From positions 2,328,332-2,392,331 of the forward strand of contig NC_009253.1 of assembly GCF_000016165.1 (NCBI RefSeq): a DNA stretch of 64,000 nt, written 5' to 3'. Both the position numbers and the translations under genes were made by a program. This stretch comes from Desulforamulus reducens MI-1. GTDB lineage: Bacteria > Bacillota > Desulfotomaculia > Desulfotomaculales > Desulfotomaculaceae. Shown piece after piece: positions 25,335-60,433 of the stretch. The notes under the pieces were generated by a model. The model made no database searches. It was given only the letters and a program-made list of their open reading frames with translations, and had not been told where the DNA came from. Numbering within the stretch: the first letter of the stretch is position 1; every line of letters begins with the position of its first letter.

Positions 25335-25354
25335 AAAAACTCCCCTTTCTTTAA

Positions 25355-25486
25355 AGCCTACGAAGTTAGCTGACGGGTTCGGGCCGAAAGGTTAAAACCC
25401 TACCGGCGTTAAAAACCGGACTCACCCCAAAAGTCGGGTCCTCCGTTCCCATATATTTACAGGATTAAGCTATTATTTACAGGCAC
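25355..25486 (-). ncRNA. c-di-AMP riboswitch (ydaO/yuaA type)
   Basis: On the minus strand the conserved blocks occur in order: GCTTAATCC, GGAACGGAGGACCC, TTTTGGGGTGAGTCC, CGGTAGGG, CCTTTCGGCCCGAACC, then CGTCAGCTAACTTCGTAGGC. The closing stem is GCCT/AGGC. The class normally turns genes off when c-di-AMP is high. No terminator separates it from the aminomutase start, 20 nt downstream, so control may be translational or the terminator overlaps the 3' arm. Confidence 0.92.
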
Positions 25487-44799: not shown

Positions 44800-44896
44800 G
44801 GCGGGAGTGTGTGAGAATCGAACTCACCATGGACAGGAACACTGCCCAACGACTGGTTTTGAAGACCAGGAGCACCACCAGGCACCATCCACCCCC
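44799..44896 (-). tRNA. selC: Selenocysteine tRNA (TCA)
   Basis: 98 nt. Anticodon arm CTGGTCTTCAAAACCAG reads UCA. It has a long variable arm (TTGGGCAG/CTGTCCA), an extended D stem and encoded CCA. Acceptor GGGGGTG/CACTCCC with one G-U. It works with SelA and SelB, whose genes are at 58.5-61.9 kb. Confidence 0.95.
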
Positions 44897-48606: not shown

Positions 48607-49173
48607 CTATTCCTCCAGATGCAGTTTTCCACCTTCGAGACTACTTACTTTGATCAGAGACTCAATTCTAACACCAGCATCCCGCAAAGCCTTACCGCCC
48701 CCCTGAAAGGCCTTTTCTATGACAATGCCTACCCCAACTAGTTCGGCATCTGCTTGCTTTACCAGATGAGCTAACCCCTTGAGAGCTTCGCCCCGGGCCA
48801 AAAAATCATCCACAATAAGTATTTTATCGTCGGATTTCAAATATTGCTTTGCCACAGAAACAGTTACAGACTCGTTCTTGGTAAAAGAATAAATGTTCGA
48901 TACATAGGAGTCGCCCAGCGTAGATGGAACCTTTTTCTTGGCAAATAGTAACGGTGTTCGTAGTGCCAGAGCGGTTGTTAAACCAATGGCAATCCCAGAG
49001 GCTTCTATGGTTAACACTTTAGTTATTTTGTCGTCCCTAAAACGACGTGCAAATTCTTCTCCGATTTCCATCATAACATTTGGGTCAATCATATGGTTGA
49101 TAAAGGAATCTACCCTTAATATTTGATCCGAAACAACTTCGGCATTGTTTTCTATGATTTCTTTCAATTGCAT
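48607..49173 (-). CDS. xpt: Xanthine phosphoribosyltransferase Xpt
   Basis: 188 residues. The PRPP site is [18 protein letters not shown]; the N-terminal part, [20 protein letters not shown], and [16 protein letters not shown] are typical. It converts xanthine (and poorly guanine) to the nucleotide with PRPP. The ATG at 49173 follows AGGGGGAG. Last gene of the operon, coupling uptake with salvage. In B. subtilis xpt is itself under a guanine riboswitch. Confidence 0.95.
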
Positions 49174-49196
49174 ATTAACTCCCCCTAATGTCATTA

Positions 49197-50129
49197 TCAG
49201 CGTTCTTCACGGTCATAGGGCAAGCCTAATGCGCCTGGAGAACCAACCCGGTTAGCCATAGCCTTTCGAGTTACCATAATTAAAACAAAAATAGTAAAGA
49301 AATAAGGTAACATTTTCAAGAAGAACGAAGGAATCATCACACCCATGGCCTGTGCACGAAAGCCAAGGGCATCAATCCCACCAAAAATATAACTACCAAA
49401 CATCGCCCTAAGGGGATTCCACGTGGCAAATATTACCAGGGCCACCGCAATCCACCCTCTGCCCGCTGTCATATTTTCTAACCAGGTGGGTGCATAGGCC
49501 AGTGAAAGGTACGCCCCACCGATTCCAGCCAGCATACCGCCCATAATTACATAGATGTAACGAATTCGATAGACACTAACCCCTAGGGAGTCCGCAGAAG
49601 CTGGGTTTTCACCCACTGCCCTTAGGTTCAAACCCGGTCGTGTCCGGTAAATAAGAAACCAGAGGGTTGGCACCAACAGATAGGTTACATACACTAGATA
49701 ATCGTGATGAAAAAAGATCGGTCCTAAAAATGGGATATCGCTTAAAAAGCCAAGGGTTACTGGCTTAAAGGAATTCACCACAGGAATTCCTATATAGGAT
49801 TTCCCAATAAAGCCAGATAACCCTGTGCCAAATATTGTAAGAGCCAGTCCACTTACAACCTGGTTGGCCTGCAAGGTTACTGTTAGGAAAGCATGGATCA
49901 GAGCCATTGCCCCGCCACCTAGCATAGCAGCTAAAACACCCAGCCACGGATCATTGGTTTTAATGGCAAAGGCAAAACCACTGACAGCTCCCACCAGCAT
50001 CATACCTTCAACCCCCAGATTGAGAATACCAGATCTCTCGGTCATTACTTCGCCCAGTGCCGCATATAGGATTGGGGTGCCAGCCGTAATGGCGGTGGCC
50101 AAAATAGTTATTAATAATTCCTGTGACAT
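49197..50129 (-). CDS. Nucleoside/purine ABC transporter permease 2
   Basis: 310 residues, about eight membrane helices, BPD_transp_2 fold (as NupQ). [20 protein letters not shown] starts it and [20 protein letters not shown] is the typical loop. [20 protein letters not shown] contacts the ATPase. Second permease of a BMP-type nucleoside importer; substrate (guanosine-like) is inferred from family and context. Four bp after the first permease. Confidence 0.93.
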
Positions 50130-50132
50130 TGG

Positions 50133-51227
50133 CTACACCTCCATCTTGGTTTTGCCTCTATAGACAATTTTATAGCGATTAAATATTTCTCCACCTAAAA
50201 TAAAAAACAACAAAGCACCTTGTATCATAAATACAATGGCCGCAGGCACCCCACTGGATTGCACGCTATAACCACCAACCTGTAAAGCACCCAGTAAGAA
50301 GGAAACAAACAGGATTGCAAAGGGATTTAATTTTCCTAGCCAAGCCACAATAATGGCAGTGTAGCCATAACCAGGACTAATGCCCTGCTGCATCCTTTGA
50401 GCAATGGCTGAAACCTCGGCCATACCAGCAAGTCCTGCCATGGCCCCGCTGAGAAACATCACCATGAGAATATTCTTGGTTATATTCATGCCTGCATAGC
50501 TTGCCGCTCTGGAACTCTCCCCAATCACTGTTACCTCATAGCCCCAGCGAGATTGCCTCAGGGCAAACCAGAGAAACACTGCTATAACCAGTGCAAAAAC
50601 CAGCCCAAAATGAACTCTGCTGTTACCCAGTGTTGGCAGAATGGCTGAGGGTTCAAAGGGTTTACTTAATGGAAAGTTCATGCCCTGGGGATCTTTCCAT
50701 GGGCCAAAAACTAGATAATTCACCCAAAGTATAGCTACATAGTTCAACATCAGAGTAGTGATGGTTTCATTCACACCCAGATATGCCCTGGGAATACCAG
50801 GCAGTAAGCCCCAGATCCCGCCACATATTATCCCAGCTAAAACCATTAACGGCAGCATAACATAAGCTGGTAAATGAGAAAAGTTTAAGGCAACCCAGGC
50901 AGCTCCAAAGGCCCCCATATGAAACTGACCCTCGGCACCAATGTTCCAAAGCTGCATACGAAAGGCAATGGATACTCCTAAACCACAAAGCATCAAAGGA
51001 ATGGCTTTTACAATGGTTTCGGACAAGCCGTAGGAAGATCCAACTGCTCCTTCCAACATACCGAAATAAACTGCAAAAACCTGCCCCCAAGTAATACCCT
51101 TGGGGGAGGTTAATCCGTTGATATAAAGGAAGATGGCTCCGGTGATCAGTGCTAGAAAAATAGCGGTAAGTGGAATTAAGATCATGCCAGCCAGAGAAGG
51201 TGCTGACCGTCTCTCCAGTTTAATCAT
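50133..51227 (-). CDS. Nucleoside/purine ABC transporter permease 1
   Basis: 364 residues with an added N-terminal helix, BPD_transp_2 fold (as NupP). LCGLGVSIAFRMQLWNIGAE is the signature; YEVTVIGESSRAASYAGMNI is the coupling loop. Overlaps the ATPase gene by 4 nt (ATGA). Confidence 0.93.
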   Translation of the reverse strand: MIKLERRSAPSLAGMILIPLTAIFLALITGAIFLYINGLTSPKGITWGQVFAVYFGMLEGAVGSSYGLSETIVKAIPLMLCGLGVSIAFRMQLWNIGAEGQFHMGAFGAAWVALNFSHLPAYVMLPLMVLAGIICGGIWGLLPGIPRAYLGVNETITTLMLNYVAILWVNYLVFGPWKDPQGMNFPLSKPFEPSAILPTLGNSRVHFGLVFALVIAVFLWFALRQSRWGYEVTVIGESSRAASYAGMNITKNILMVMFLSGAMAGLAGMAEVSAIAQRMQQGISPGYGYTAIIVAWLGKLNPFAILFVSFLLGALQVGGYSVQSSGVPAAIVFMIQGALLFFILGGEIFNRYKIVYRGKTKMEV

Positions 51228-52753
51228 GATGCCATAACCTCCCCTGATTTTGCCCCTAACATCATTAGACCAATGACCTCTGGTTCTGCTTTCTCCACCG
51301 GAAGAATACCCACTAAAGAACCCTTATATAGGACACCAATATTATCGGAAAGTTTCAGTAGTTCTTCCAAATCCTCCGAAATTAATACTATTGCCGCTCC
51401 CTTGCTTCTCTGCTCAAGCAGCATTTTATGAATGAATTCAGCGGCAGCAATATCAAGACCCCGCACCGGGTAAACTGCAACAATGACTTTGGGCGAACAG
51501 GCCAATTCTCTTGCCAGCAGAAGTCTTTGTAAGTTTCCACCGGAAAGCATTTTAACCGGAGCATCCATGCCTGTAAGCTTAACTCCCACTTCGTTGACCA
51601 ATTCATTTGTATATTCATTGGCCTTATTACGGTTAATAAACGGACCACTGCCCAGCCCAGGACGGCGATATTCTTTTAAGATAAGATTCTCAACCGCTCC
51701 AAGGTTGGGCACCAATCCGGTACCCAAACGGTCTTCTGGAATATAACTGACTCCTTCATCAATAACTTCTAAGGTGGATAGGTTGGTAACATCCTTTTCT
51801 TCAATATAAATTTTGCCGCTGGAAACTTGCCGTAATCCTGCAATGGTTTCTGCCAATTCCCTCCGACCGTTCCCTGCTATGCCGGCAATACCCATAATTT
51901 CTCCAGCCCTTACCTGCAAAGAGATGTCTTTAATACCTGCTCGACGACTATCGCTGCCAGCACTTAAATTATCTAGTTTGAGTACTGTCTGCCCAAATTT
52001 ACCAGGTTTCTTTTGGCTGGGAACCACTATATCCTGACCCATCATTAACCTAGCCAATTCACGTTCGTTAACCTCATGCTTTTCCCGGGTCGCAATAGAC
52101 CTGCCACCTCGTAAAATGGTAACCCGGTCAGATACTTCCATTACCTCGTTTAATTTATGGGTGATTAGAATGATAGATTGTCCTTTAGCTGTCATTTGCC
52201 GCACTGTTTGGAATAACTCCCTTGCTTCCTGAGGGGTTAACACAGCAGTAGGTTCATCCAGAACCAAGAGCTTAGAACCCCGGTACAGCATTTTAACAAT
52301 TTCAACCCTTTGTTTTTCGGCAACAGATAACTGCCAAACCTTTGCGGTAGGGTCCACATGAAGCCCATAGCCAAGAGAAATATCTTCAATCTCTTTTTCT
52401 ACTTTCTTGGCATTTATAAAGAATTTAGCTTCTTTACTGCCAAGAATAACATTCTCAGCTACGGAAAAAGTGTCGACTTGCTTGAAATGTTGGTGAACCA
52501 TGCCGATCCCTGCGTCAATTGCTTCCCGAGGAGACTTAAAAATTTGTTTCTTGCCCGAAATATAAATCTCTCCCTCATCAGGACGGTAAAGCCCGGAAAG
52601 AATAGACATTAATGTACTTTTGCCGGAACCGTTTTCCCCAAGTAAAGCCAATACTTCACCCTTTTTCACTTGAAGATTTACCCCATCGTTGGCCAGCACA
52701 CCAGGAAATCTTTTGGTGATTTGTTTCATTTCAACCAAATAATTGGCAGTCAA
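51224..52753 (-). CDS. Nucleoside/purine ABC transporter ATPase (two domains)
   Basis: 509 residues. First domain: Walker A GENGSGKST, signature LSVAEKQRVEI, Walker B LLVLDEPTAVL. Second domain: degenerate P-loop GIAGNGRRELAE, signature LSGGNLQRLLL, and VIVAVYPVRGLD in place of the usual D-E box. This asymmetry is normal for sugar/nucleoside importers. Separated from the BMP gene by a hairpin. Confidence 0.95.
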   Translation of the reverse strand: MTANYLVEMKQITKRFPGVLANDGVNLQVKKGEVLALLGENGSGKSTLMSILSGLYRPDEGEIYISGKKQIFKSPREAIDAGIGMVHQHFKQVDTFSVAENVILGSKEAKFFINAKKVEKEIEDISLGYGLHVDPTAKVWQLSVAEKQRVEIVKMLYRGSKLLVLDEPTAVLTPQEARELFQTVRQMTAKGQSIILITHKLNEVMEVSDRVTILRGGRSIATREKHEVNERELARLMMGQDIVVPSQKKPGKFGQTVLKLDNLSAGSDSRRAGIKDISLQVRAGEIMGIAGIAGNGRRELAETIAGLRQVSSGKIYIEEKDVTNLSTLEVIDEGVSYIPEDRLGTGLVPNLGAVENLILKEYRRPGLGSGPFINRNKANEYTNELVNEVGVKLTGMDAPVKMLSGGNLQRLLLARELACSPKVIVAVYPVRGLDIAAAEFIHKMLLEQRSKGAAIVLISEDLEELLKLSDNIGVLYKGSLVGILPVEKAEPEVIGLMMLGAKSGEVMAS

Positions 52754-52829: not shown

Positions 52830-53936
52830 TTATTTAGGAATGGTACCCTCTACACCTTCCACAAACCAATCAAGGGAAAGCATATCGGCATCGGACATTT
52901 TCTGTCCAGCAGCAACTCTTTCCTTGCCGGCCTGGTCTTTAATGGGACCTGTAAATACATCGAACTTACCTTCAATAATCTCTTGTTTTTTAGTTTCAAC
53001 AACTTTCTTAATATCGTCAGAAACCATCGGACCATATGGTGCTAAATCAACAATGTTATCAGACATGGGTCCCCAATATTGGTCGCTTTTCCAGGTGCCT
53101 GCTTGAATTGCTTTTACAGTGTCAACATAATAGGGTCCCCAATTCCAAACAGCAGAGGTCATAACGGCCTTGGGTGCCATTTTACTCATATCACTGTTGT
53201 AACCAATGCCAAACTTACCCTTTTCTTCAGCAGCTTGCTGGGGACCAGGGGTATCCTGGTGTTGGGTTACAACATCGGCACCTGCTTCCAGCAAACTCTT
53301 GCCAGCTTCCTTTTCAGCAGCGGGATCATACCAGGTATTGGTCCAAACTACCTTTACCTTGGCTTCGGGGTTTACAGATCTAACCCCTAAAGTAAAAGCA
53401 TTAATACCACGAATTACTTCAGGAATTGGGAATGCGGCAACGTAGCCAATAACATTGCTCTTAGTAGTTTCACCAGCTAAAACACCAGTCAGATAACGGG
53501 CCTGATACATACGACCAAAGTAGGTTCCAACGTTTTCAGCGGTTTTATAGCCTGAGCAATGCAGGAATTTAACATCTGGATACTTCTGGGCCACTTTAAT
53601 AACGCTATCCATATATCCAAAGCTGGTGGCAAAGATAATTTTGTTACCTTTTTCTACAAGTTCAGTTAAAACACGTTCGGAATCAGCACCTTCTGGAACA
53701 GACTCAATATAAGTAGTTTCCAAGCCGGGTATTTCCTTTTCTAAATACTGGCGTCCTGCATCATGGGAATAGCTCCAACCACCGTCACCCACCGGACCGA
53801 CATAGATAAAACCGATTTTTAACTTATCTTCCTTTTTTCCTTCCTGGTCTTGTGGTTTTTCACTGCCACACCCCACCACTGCAAAGGTAAACAAAAGAGT
53901 TAAAACAAGTGCAAAAAACTTTTTGTTTAATTTCAT
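52830..53936 (-). CDS. BMP-family nucleoside-binding lipoprotein
   Basis: 368 residues. The signal peptide ends in a lipobox (LLFTFAVVGCGSEK; Cys near residue 23). KIGFIYVGPVGDGGWSYSHD and IIFATSFGYMDSVIKVAQKY are the BMP/PnrA fold. It captures purine nucleosides outside the cell for the permease. First gene of the operon. I see no convincing promoter in the 230 bp before it, which makes read-through from the upstream riboswitch plausible. AGGAGG precedes the ATG. Confidence 0.94.
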   Translation of the reverse strand: MKLNKKFFALVLTLLFTFAVVGCGSEKPQDQEGKKEDKLKIGFIYVGPVGDGGWSYSHDAGRQYLEKEIPGLETTYIESVPEGADSERVLTELVEKGNKIIFATSFGYMDSVIKVAQKYPDVKFLHCSGYKTAENVGTYFGRMYQARYLTGVLAGETTKSNVIGYVAAFPIPEVIRGINAFTLGVRSVNPEAKVKVVWTNTWYDPAAEKEAGKSLLEAGADVVTQHQDTPGPQQAAEEKGKFGIGYNSDMSKMAPKAVMTSAVWNWGPYYVDTVKAIQAGTWKSDQYWGPMSDNIVDLAPYGPMVSDDIKKVVETKKQEIIEGKFDVFTGPIKDQAGKERVAAGQKMSDADMLSLDWFVEGVEGTIPK

Positions 53937-54168
53937 TTCCTAACCTCCTAAAATTTTAACTTATATTGGTTTAAATAGGTTTTTTCCGCTCCCCCACCCC
54001 CTGAAAAGACAGCTTTTAACTTTAAACTATTATCAAAAAAACTCGTTTTACAAAACACATAAGAATACAACTGGATTATTTATTACTCAATAGGAATAGA
54101 TTGGTTATGAATTGCCAATACTCTAGGGTGTAAGCAGTTTGCTTTATAAATATTGAGGAGGAAATACA

Positions 54169-54366
54169 TTGCAAGGTAAGGTTAAATGGTTTAATGCCAA
54201 CAAAGGGTATGGCTTCATTGAGTCAGAAATTGGTACTGATGTTTTTGTGCACTACTCTGCAATTCAGTCAGAGGGCTATCGTACCCTGGAAGAAGGAGAG
54301 CCCGTGGATTTTGAAATTATTGAAGGTACCCGTGGCCCACAGGCTGCGAATGTGATAAAACTGTAA
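54169..54366 (+). CDS. Cold-shock protein (CspA family)
   Basis: 65 residues with RNP1 KGYGFIE and RNP2 VFVHYSAI, so an OB-fold RNA chaperone. It starts with TTG, placed seven bases after GAGGAGG. It lies on the strand opposite the riboswitch and its operon, exactly between them. The riboswitch terminator hairpin, read on the plus strand, ends the csp transcript (CTGGGCTTTTAT). Confidence 0.95.
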
Positions 54367-54382
54367 AACAGTCTTATCAATT

Positions 54383-54439
54383 AAAAAAAGCCCAGCACGA
54401 TAGGATTCCTCTTAGCAGAGTGAAACCTACCGCCTGGGC
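54383..54439. terminator. Riboswitch terminator, also ending the csp gene
   Basis: GCCCAG/CTGGGC base with inner pairing TAGG/CCTA. Minus strand ends in seven T; plus strand in TTTTAT. The 5' arm is the AAAAGCCCAG block of the ykkC aptamer, so aptamer folding and termination are exclusive. Confidence 0.88.
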
Positions 54440-54531
54440 TTTTATCCCTCTAGGTGTAGCGCTGTAATACGCCTGTACCGCTTGGACCAAACCAACCTAA
54501 AAAGATTGTGGAACCCTAGGTACACTTTCCC
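54433..54531 (-). ncRNA. ykkC subtype 2 riboswitch, probably PRPP-sensing
   Basis: On the minus strand: GTACCTAGGGTTCC, then GGTTTGGTCCAAGCGGTACA, GGCG...CGC, CTACACCTAGAGGGATAAAA and GCCCAG. CTAGGGTTCC, GGTCC.AG and GGGATAAAAGCCC are ykkC-family landmarks; the rest fits subtype 2 (ppGpp or PRPP) better than guanidine. A guanine aptamer directly upstream points to PRPP, since such tandems are known. Confidence 0.82.
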
Positions 54532-54532
54532 T

Positions 54533-54595
54533 CCGTAGTCGGGCAATTACGGTTGCCCGGTAGAAACACTTAAGCCAATTCCTAAGCATATACGG
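54533..54595 (-). ncRNA. Guanine (purine) riboswitch aptamer
   Basis: 63 nt. P1 CCGTA/TACGG; L2 GGAATTGG; J2/3 GTTTCTACC; P3 GGGCA.../TTGCCC with L3 CCGTAAT; J3/1 GACTA. The C in GACTA predicts guanine, not adenine. L3 differs by one base from CCGTAAAT. Confidence 0.9.
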
Positions 54596-54616
54596 AATCT
54601 ATTTCATTATGAGTAA

Positions 54617-54645
54617 ATCCTACCAAGATTATAGACTCTTGTCAA
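54617..54645 (-). promoter_or_regulatory. Promoter of the tandem riboswitch
   Basis: TTGACA (54645-54640), 17-bp spacer, TAGGAT (54622-54617) on the minus strand, about 20 bp before the guanine aptamer. A TATAAT inside the spacer region offers an alternative. Confidence 0.7.
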
Positions 54646-54712: not shown

Positions 54713-54743
54713 AAAAATCCGGGAAATCTCCCGGACTTTTTTT
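54713..54743. terminator. Terminator between the zinc-ribbon/phosphatase pair and the riboswitch
   Basis: AAAAATCCGGGA/TCCCGGACTTTTTTT hairpin; usable on both strands, so it insulates the riboswitch promoter from the phosphatase gene. Confidence 0.85.
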
Positions 54744-58525: not shown

Positions 58526-60433
58526 CTAGACCAGTACCCTATTATCTCCCACTCGGCGGGTCAGCCTCTCACGATCCATGGTTTCCAGCAAAGGTAGAGT
58601 GAACTTTCGGGAGGTTTTTAACAAATCACGAGTCTGAGCCACTGAGATTTCTTTGTTTTCTTTAAGGTATTCAACAATTTTCGTTTTGGCCTGCTGATAT
58701 CGATCTGCTGTATAATACAGTTCATCATCGCTTAGCTTAACTAATTGGCCCGTACGGAGAAAATACTGCAGATACTCTTGGGACTCAGCATCCTTCAGAC
58801 GGAACTTTTTCACAACTTCCACCCAGGACGGCGGCTGAAAATTGCCTTCTTGTATGGCACATATCATATCCTGTACCAACTTCTGCTGGCTGCCGGATAA
58901 CTCACCAGTAAATTCTGCTAAGGCAAGGGTTTTATCATGAAGCTTCAATAAACCATCTATTTCCATTGCCTGGAGCAAATACTGAAAGTGTTTGTTATTG
59001 ATAAAGGGGAATTTCCTGGAGCGCAGTTCTTCCTTCGGGTACCCTTCTCTTAAGGGGTATTCCCGATGATAGTTGATTACCATACTCTTAATTTCCTGAC
59101 GCCATTTGTTATAAGTAAATTGTGCTATATAGAGACTCTTTTTGTCGACTGGTATGCATTTTACCTGTTGTTCAGACTGTAACTTCTCTATACTAATTTT
59201 TAGATCGTCCCCGGCAAGACCAGTTGCTTCAATAATTTCTTCCGGACTAAACAGGCCCTGCTTTCCAGCTAGAAGTTGGTTTACTAATTCCTCTGGGGTC
59301 CCCTTCTCTTTGGTGGCCAGTCCTTCCAACACCTCTGATCGATAGCGTTTATGCTTGGGTGCATTGGGTTCAATGACAACACCGCCACCAATGGTCCTCA
59401 TAGGAGAATAGGATCGGATAACAAAACGATCCCCTTTACCGGCAATTCCCCTCTCTTCCAATTCCAGCTGAACATAGGCTTCCTGGTTTGGTTCTATTTC
59501 TTCTCGGTCCAGAAGTCTCACCCTACCTAAAATCTCATCAGTTCCCAAATACAACCGAACCCTAGCCCGATTTTTAAGCGGTTTTTCCGCGCTTTCCAAT
59601 AATAGAAATTTAACATCCATACGGTGTGAAGGTTCTACGCTGTTAGGCGTTACCAAAACACTACCACGCTTAACCTCCTCCACCTCCACTCCGATGATGT
59701 TTACTGCCGTCCGTTGACCTGCCCGAGCCTGCTCTACTTTTTTACCATGGACTTGTATGGAGCGAACTCTAGAAACCGTGCCAAGGGGCATGATTTCTAC
59801 GGTATCTCCCGTGGAAACCCGGCCAGATAGCAAAGTACCAGTTACTACCGTCCCAAAACCAGTTACTGAGAACACCCTGTCTATGGGTAACCTTAACTTA
59901 CCACTGCTGTTTCTTTCTTCCGTGTCATCCACAAATTGATCAATTAAATCCAATAGTTGCGGAATCCCCTGCTTAGTTGTAGATGATACAGGTACAACAG
60001 GTGCCTCACTAAGAACAGTATCTTTTAAATACTCCCTAATTTCTTCCGTTACCAAGCTAAGCCATTCCTCGTCCACCATATCTATTTTGGTTAAGACCAC
60101 TATCCCTTTCTTAACTTGAAGCAATTGAATAATATCAACATGTTCTTTGGTTTGGGGCATCACGCCTTCGTCCGCAGCAATTACCAACAATACCAAGTCA
60201 ATTCCGCCGACCCCTGCCAACATGTTCTTAATAAATTTTTCGTGACCCGGGACATCCACAATACCTGCTTGTTTACCACTGGGCAGTTTAAGCTGGGCAA
60301 AGCCAAGCTCAATGGAAATACCTCTTTCCTTCTCTTCTTTTAAACGGTCAGTATCCATTCCTGTTAATGTTTTAATAAGCAAGGTTTTACCATGGTCCAC
60401 GTGCCCTGCGGTTCCAATGATAATATGCTTCAT
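58526..60433 (-). CDS. selB: Selenocysteine-specific elongation factor SelB
   Basis: 635 residues. EF-Tu-like GTPase with [21 protein letters not shown] and TKIDMVD in residues 1-170. Two beta-barrel domains follow. From about residue 380 there are winged-helix repeats that bind the SECIS hairpin, ending with VGDNRVLV. It brings Sec-tRNA to UGA codons. Its start overlaps the end of selA (ATGA). Confidence 0.97.

Follow-up and report, generated by a model that had tools for sequence, protein, structure and literature searches.

A tandem guanine-PRPP-type riboswitch beyond an antisense cold-shock gene as the probable switch of a purine uptake operon in Desulforamulus reducens

Which gene is controlled by a riboswitch when its nearest neighbor downstream lies on the opposite strand? 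This question is raised by a locus of Desulforamulus reducens MI-1 (genome of one contig, 3,608,104 bp), where two aptamers and a terminator on the minus strand are followed by the cold-shock gene csp on the plus strand and then by a minus-strand operon for purine uptake. The window analyzed here is the whole stretch of 64,000 nucleotides (NC_009253.1, positions 2,328,332 to 2,392,331), and all positions below refer to it. From the genomic comparisons we consider it probable that conditional control of the BMP-ABC-xpt operon for purine uptake and salvage lies mainly with the tandem, a guanine-PRPP riboswitch of the known IMPLY type that carries a promoter of its own. The features of the locus are as follows.

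54718 to 54735, plus strand: T-rich hairpin resembling a terminator for the csp strand, past the tandem (terminator scan)
54617 to 54645, minus strand: sigma-A-type promoter TTGACA-N17-TAGGAT with extended -10 (TG before the -10; consensus scan, conservation and shuffles)
54516 to 54615, minus strand: guanine (purine) aptamer (RF00167, 75.7 bits, cut-off 37; covarying helices)
54422 to 54530, minus strand: PRPP-type ykkC aptamer with P0 at 54529-54526 / 54425-54422 (RF00442; purE/NCS2-type tail)
54383 to 54443, minus strand: shared intrinsic terminator whose 5' arm overlaps P3 and P0 (-35.3 kcal/mol, followed by seven T)
54169 to 54366, plus strand: csp, 65-aa cold-shock domain protein (Pfam CSD, 104 bits), antisense to the predicted read-through RNA
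53937 to 54168, minus strand: csp-BMP gap, holding the csp upstream region (no BMP promoter-like site above chance)
52830 to 53936, minus strand: substrate-binding protein of the BMP family, heading the operon (Pfam Bmp, 226 bits)
51224 to 52753, minus strand: ABC transporter ATPase (Pfam ABC_tran)
50133 to 51227, minus strand: ABC permease (Pfam BPD_transp_2)
49197 to 50129, minus strand: ABC permease (Pfam BPD_transp_2)
48607 to 49194, minus strand: xpt, xanthine phosphoribosyltransferase (NF006671, 249.6 bits, cut-off 177; TIGR01744, 231.7 bits, cut-off 164.45)

The original prediction had placed a minus-strand promoter, a guanine aptamer, a ykkC aptamer and a terminator shared with the latter at 54645-54383, and Rfam searches, conservation and folding bore this out. 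Both aptamers scored above their Rfam cut-offs in the covariance search, the second one as a match to RF00442 (ykkC/Guanidine-I) at 54429-54530 on the minus strand with 65.9 bits against a cut-off of 63. The terminator stem extends from 54443 to 54386, and its 5' arm is formed by the 3' strands of P3 and P0 (within 54443-54422). This shared terminator was not picked up by the simple terminator scan; its orthologues fold at -35.3 to -38.0 kcal/mol in all six genomes with the same layout. For conservation, 18 tandems of the genus were compared, a set that leaves out a second tandem-like pair of genome G002 (contig C3) and the tandem of G009, where the contig ends, and that counts the C18 tandem of G002 despite its degenerate guanine part. 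In these tandems 98.0% of the aptamer-helix cells were paired and 10 aptamer pairs had changed on both sides, compared to a shuffled mean of 4.1; neither the pairing nor the number of double changes was reached in any of 500 shuffles, and sliding the partners by one column left at most 47.8% of the cells paired. Judged from these patterns, the aptamer helices are under selection, and chance aptamers were ruled out by the Rfam scores together with the covariation of the helices relative to shuffles. P0 was paired in all 18 tandems without any variation. The terminator pairs were kept in 90.4% of the cells, with no excess of covariation over shuffles in the same set. In the C18 tandem (locus L123), found at a pur locus, the guanine aptamer is without its core, with the PRPP-type aptamer and the terminator retained; this is possibly a change from a two-input to a one-input switch in an assembly that is 72% complete.

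We are aware of the fact that a consensus promoter scan of the whole 2-kb region performed at chance level (6 sites versus 5.7 expected), and the promoter call for the tandem therefore rests on conservation and on the shuffle score. The promoter is kept in all six orthologues, and its score within 90 bp was equalled in 1 of 200 dinucleotide shuffles; over the six genomes the tandem promoter scored 11, with p-values of 0 to 0.015 against such shuffles. Throughout the genus the promoter is part of the cassette (18 of 18), with TTGACA and a TAGTAT, TACTAT or TAGGAT hexamer. The spacer is 17 nt long in 17 tandems and 18 nt in one, the adenine-deaminase copy of D. reducens itself.

The ligands at the locus would be guanine and PRPP. 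The purine aptamer carries a C in its GACTAC junction, which we take to mark the guanine rather than the adenine type. For the second aptamer the Rfam name Guanidine-I is not decisive, because one model covers the ykkC group in these results. In published work, ykkC subtype 2a, found with branched-chain amino-acid genes, binds ppGpp and subtype 2b, found with purine genes, binds PRPP (PMC5912903), while position 96 tells the two apart, being G in PRPP aptamers (PMC6031431). The tail of the aptamer, CCCAGGNGGNAGGTTTC (CCCAGGNGGNAGGTTTCACT), is invariant in the 18 tandems of the genus. In an order-wide comparison, ykkC RNAs located before purE or an NCS2 permease carried the tail CCCAGGCGG followed by TAGG or a close form and TTTC. 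One set of ykkC RNAs outside the genus comprised 14 members, with one aminotransferase and one purE checked against protein families and the remaining genes assigned by eye; 4 of these RNAs had the purE/NCS2-type tail, while the other 10, located before a branched-chain-aminotransferase-like gene, had GACCC, R or none, AGCGG and AGGTTCC. The tandem tail is unlike all 10 of the latter. By this comparison with other ykkC RNAs the second aptamer is of the PRPP type, in support of the original prediction of a subtype 2, PRPP-type aptamer. A second aptamer of the guanidine or ppGpp type, the outcome which that prediction had named as speaking against itself, was checked on the sequence: the tail does not have the aminotransferase-linked form, which argues against ppGpp, and the invariant P0 strands and subtype-2 tail in 18 of 18 tandems argue against the guanidine class. 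The two P1 stems are spaced by 6 nt, which fits the 5 to 7 nt given for the published guanine-PRPP tandem (PMC5912903).

The gene content downstream was also as predicted. The next minus-strand gene starts at 53936, 450 nt past the tandem terminator, and Pfam and NCBIfam models identified it as the head of a purine uptake operon with xpt in last position. A small minus-strand gene between the terminator and BMP was considered and dropped, since no open reading frame of 50 aa or more is found there in the window; a 73-aa frame opposite csp was reported for one genome of the genus (G004). No minus-strand terminator-like site was found between tandem and BMP in the window with the simple scan. 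A recurrent feature of the genus is a stretch rich in G (GGGGGTGGGGGAG and kin) some 60-80 nt ahead of BMP, in the window at about 53985-54010 on the minus strand; by eye it could be the start of a short upstream open reading frame in several genomes. Elsewhere in the window, the minus strand carries an ordinary c-di-AMP riboswitch (25340-25481, 103.2 bits), a selenocysteine tRNA (44803-44896) and an open reading frame that resembles selB by eye (58526-60433).

The layout of tandem, antisense csp and BMP operon was found in 6 of 9 Desulforamulus genomes, corresponding to 6 of the 8 with BMP. In all six the cassette is complete with promoter, both aptamers and terminator, and the distance from the tandem to BMP is 409-506 nt. 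These six genomes may amount to a single event, as the trees are silent on gain versus loss. Genomes G002 and G007 have BMP without a local tandem; operon reading is broken in the incomplete G002 assembly. Both carry GCAGGATTT-N14-GAATA 127-136 nt before BMP, presumably a sigma-H promoter, and the motif is absent from this position in the six tandem genomes. As the sigma-H-like motif was derived from these two genomes, its score there is by construction; a looser pattern (N12 to N16) gave 28 matches in the nine genomes, including the G002 and G007 sites, versus 1 for the reversed pattern. The lone match of D. reducens outside the locus (L185) yielded nothing informative. In the ninth genome, G005, the BMP-xpt operon is lost and the locus has csp and no tandem; a 7-kb insertion lies between a zinc-ribbon gene and csp, which weakens this case. 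The insertion (L207, G005:C1:403500-412000) holds two molybdenum-cofactor riboswitches and an open reading frame that by eye resembles the reverse transcriptase of a group II intron.

The other 12 tandems of the genus are followed by a purine gene on the same strand, nine by NCS2-type permeases (the one of G002 identified by eye) and three by adenine deaminases. D. reducens itself has a second tandem before an NCS2 permease, purE and purB, a third before an adenine deaminase, and a lone purine aptamer upstream of an NCS2 permease gene. A second BMP gene is found at locus L010 (G000:C1, about 3007800 to 3002500), downstream of a tandem, an adenine deaminase and genes for molybdenum hydroxylases.

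A separate promoter directly before BMP had been named in the original prediction as evidence against a shared transcript. Concerning consensus-type sites, none was found: the six csp-BMP gaps contained no site of the sigma-A or sigma-H type that exceeded dinucleotide shuffles (p-values of 0.36-1.0), mononucleotide shuffles agreed (0.31-1.0), and a non-consensus promoter is possible. We are fully aware that a missing consensus promoter is weak evidence in AT-rich DNA, with the scan at chance overall.

Further indications came from another family of the order (G046, G047, G048 and G051). Here four tandems, both aptamers over the Rfam cut-offs, directly precede BMP and its ATPase at a distance of 37-83 nt. 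Three further tandems of this family are located upstream of an NCS2 permease. A same-strand purine aptamer was seen upstream of BMP at 19 of the 77 BMP loci outside the genus, either directly or past an xpt-like gene, and two of these 19 qualify as tandems at the cut-offs. At none of the 77 loci is csp interposed; in two it is found about 2.9 kb upstream of BMP, past the tandem. Short opposite-strand open reading frames in some of these gaps were judged spurious by eye. For ykkC loci outside the genus, a sequence pattern recognized 27 of 60, 7 of them with a guanine aptamer, and missed the real loci L219, L227, L251 and L259, the last of which has a purine aptamer over the cut-off and a ykkC part under it.

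The two loci of the other family with enough flank (G048 and G046) show the order orf55841 homologue, opposite-strand csp, about 2.6 kb (holding two genes in G048), tandem and BMP, while in the genus csp adjoins BMP and the tandem lies on the far side of csp. By this comparison the switch has apparently moved from one side of csp to the other. An insertion of csp into an existing leader was dropped as explanation, since csp is found beyond the tandem in the other family. A likely history is that a deletion put csp beside BMP and removed the first tandem, that BMP then depended on a sigma-H-like site, which G002 and G007 still have, and that a new copy of the cassette came to lie beyond csp in the ancestor of the six genomes. 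In the five-protein tree G007 and G002 stand outside the six with weak support, and a single gain versus a loss of the local tandem is left undecided, one change being needed in 21% (BMP) and 35% (five-protein) of the bootstraps. In a cassette tree of 25 loci the guanine-PRPP cassettes group by family rather than by target, as if copied or homogenized within the lineage, and the genus BMP cassettes need 3 changes. The genus cassettes are closer to each other than to those of the other family, which fits concerted evolution, too.

Taking these observations together, the comparisons within the genus and with the other family support the original prediction that read-through RNA serves as a long leader to the BMP-xpt operon and is antisense to csp. 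In the proposed mechanism guanine would stabilize its own aptamer and oppose the PRPP aptamer, so that the terminator forms. PRPP binding would hold P3 and P0 together, thereby tying up the 5' arm of the terminator, and the polymerase would pass; this direction of switching is what we infer for the locus from known tandems. As csp lies between terminator and BMP, RNA that continues must cross csp in antisense in order to reach BMP. It would run for about 450 nt past the terminator, through csp and into BMP, and is most likely the leader of the operon. This leader would be about 670 nt long and double as a full-length antisense RNA to csp.

Does csp itself belong to what is regulated? The tandem terminator and csp are encoded on opposite strands, and the end of the former is 17 nt away from the csp stop; this is the 3'-end, against-gene placement of antisense-acting riboswitches. 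The riboswitch might accordingly have csp as its main target, with high PRPP or low guanine leading to antisense RNA and less Csp, and BMP might use an unrecognized promoter of its own. This reading, which we regard as quite unlikely, agrees with published riboswitches at gene 3' ends that are antisense to the gene (PMC9943018; PMC7154746), and read-through RNA would indeed cover csp and its upstream region completely. However, the tandems of the other family serve the same BMP operon directly, the 12 remaining genus tandems serve same-strand purine genes, and csp has stayed in place in G002 and G007, which have no tandem there. G005, with csp and no local tandem, argues against csp as the reason for keeping the tandem, subject to the insertion mentioned above. 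Alternatively, the arrangement might have been selected as a riboswitch-gated excludon, in which uptake and csp expression are mutually exclusive and csp transcription in the cold also reduces uptake. By geometry, convergent transcription is unavoidable if both promoters fire, and long leaders repressing opposite genes are known, for instance for mogR (PMC7154746). Yet no feature of csp tracks the tandem: csp is present at the locus in 9 of 9 genomes, its upstream motifs are similar with and without the tandem, and each genome has 2 to 4 csp genes, which makes such selection unlikely. The same observations did not sustain the functional link from purine state to csp as originally stated. An effect on csp as a by-product is plausible, since RNA spanning csp and its upstream region could bring about polymerase collision or RNase III processing.

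Csp-type proteins such as CspA and CspE of E. coli can melt terminators. A loop is conceivable in which the guanine-PRPP gate governs purine uptake and via the same RNA brings about repression of a cold-shock RNA chaperone, while Csp may open the shared terminator, closing a circuit between purine and cold-shock responses; we consider this doubtful. That csp has cut the tandem off from BMP, leaving a relic from which only the short terminated RNA is made, is very improbable. The long way to BMP (409-506 nt versus 37-83 nt in the other family) would fit such a relic, but promoter, both aptamers and terminator are intact in all six genomes, and over the 18 tandems, these six among them, covariation is seen in the aptamer helices. 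Our preferred reading thus remains the tandem as switch of the BMP-ABC-xpt operon.

The plus-strand position of csp between tandem and BMP was confirmed, while its predicted ending at the tandem hairpin is only possible. On the csp strand this hairpin is followed by just TTTTA (TTTTATCCC), and the T-rich hairpin at 54718-54735 lies beyond. As the end TTTTATCCC is dictated by the conserved aptamer letters GGGATAAAAGCCC, any role of the tandem hairpin in terminating csp would be incidental. A similar hairpin lies directly 3' of csp in G002 and G007, which have no local tandem. Matches to the Rfam cspA thermoregulator over csp and its upstream region (L011-L014, L015-L018, L026-L028, L207-L209) scored 28.7 to 66 bits, under the cut-off of 78, and probably reflect protein-coding similarity. 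The published D. reducens proteome text contains no mention of cold shock, purine or basic membrane.

If the proposed reading is true, the locus represents a two-ligand riboswitch whose ON product serves as operon leader and at the same time as antisense RNA to the whole of an unrelated regulator. Natural contrasts are offered by the genus (tandem beyond csp; no tandem and another promoter-like site; no operon), and the other family adds a switch on the near side of csp. The locus also calls for caution: assigning a riboswitch to the next gene would miss the operon here, or declare csp the target. In listings of open papers on guanine riboswitches and cold-shock antisense RNA, PRPP riboswitches in Desulfotomaculum, and noncontiguous operons with riboswitches, no account of this layout came up. 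A survey of antisense riboswitches, in its accessible parts, gives 20 ykkC and 13 purine cases and seven genes with tandem antisense riboswitches (PMC9943018), among which the present locus may be included.

Compared to known systems, the locus combines familiar elements. As in the tandem guanine-PRPP riboswitch of Bacillus megaterium codA (Sherlock et al. 2018, PMC5912903), one of a class of which a later survey counted 192 (PMC9481103), a guanine aptamer is followed after 6 nt by P1 of a ykkC aptamer of the PRPP type, a single shared terminator overlaps the second aptamer, and purine genes follow downstream. Different from that system, an opposite-strand csp lies here between switch and operon, and the target is a BMP transporter-xpt operon; in the accessible sections of PMC5912903, xpt is not mentioned and no purine transporter is named among the targets. 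Riboswitches on the opposite strand past the 3' end of a gene, with antisense read-through, are described for rli39/aspocR of Listeria and for the S-box at ubiG of Clostridium (PMC7154746; PMC9943018), whereas at our locus the read-through RNA would most likely also be the leader of a purine operon, gated by two aptamers with different ligands. An operon transcript that overlaps an opposite-strand gene, suggested here by genome comparison, is likewise known from the mogR long-5'-UTR excludon of Listeria and the noncontiguous menaquinone operons of Staphylococcus aureus (PMC7154746). Unlike in both, the gate on the overlap would here be a riboswitch with two ligands, and unlike in the menaquinone case csp lies within the leader and not between coding genes of the operon. 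Guanine-PRPP tandems, antisense riboswitches and leaders overlapping opposite genes are thus all known; what is unusual here is the layout.
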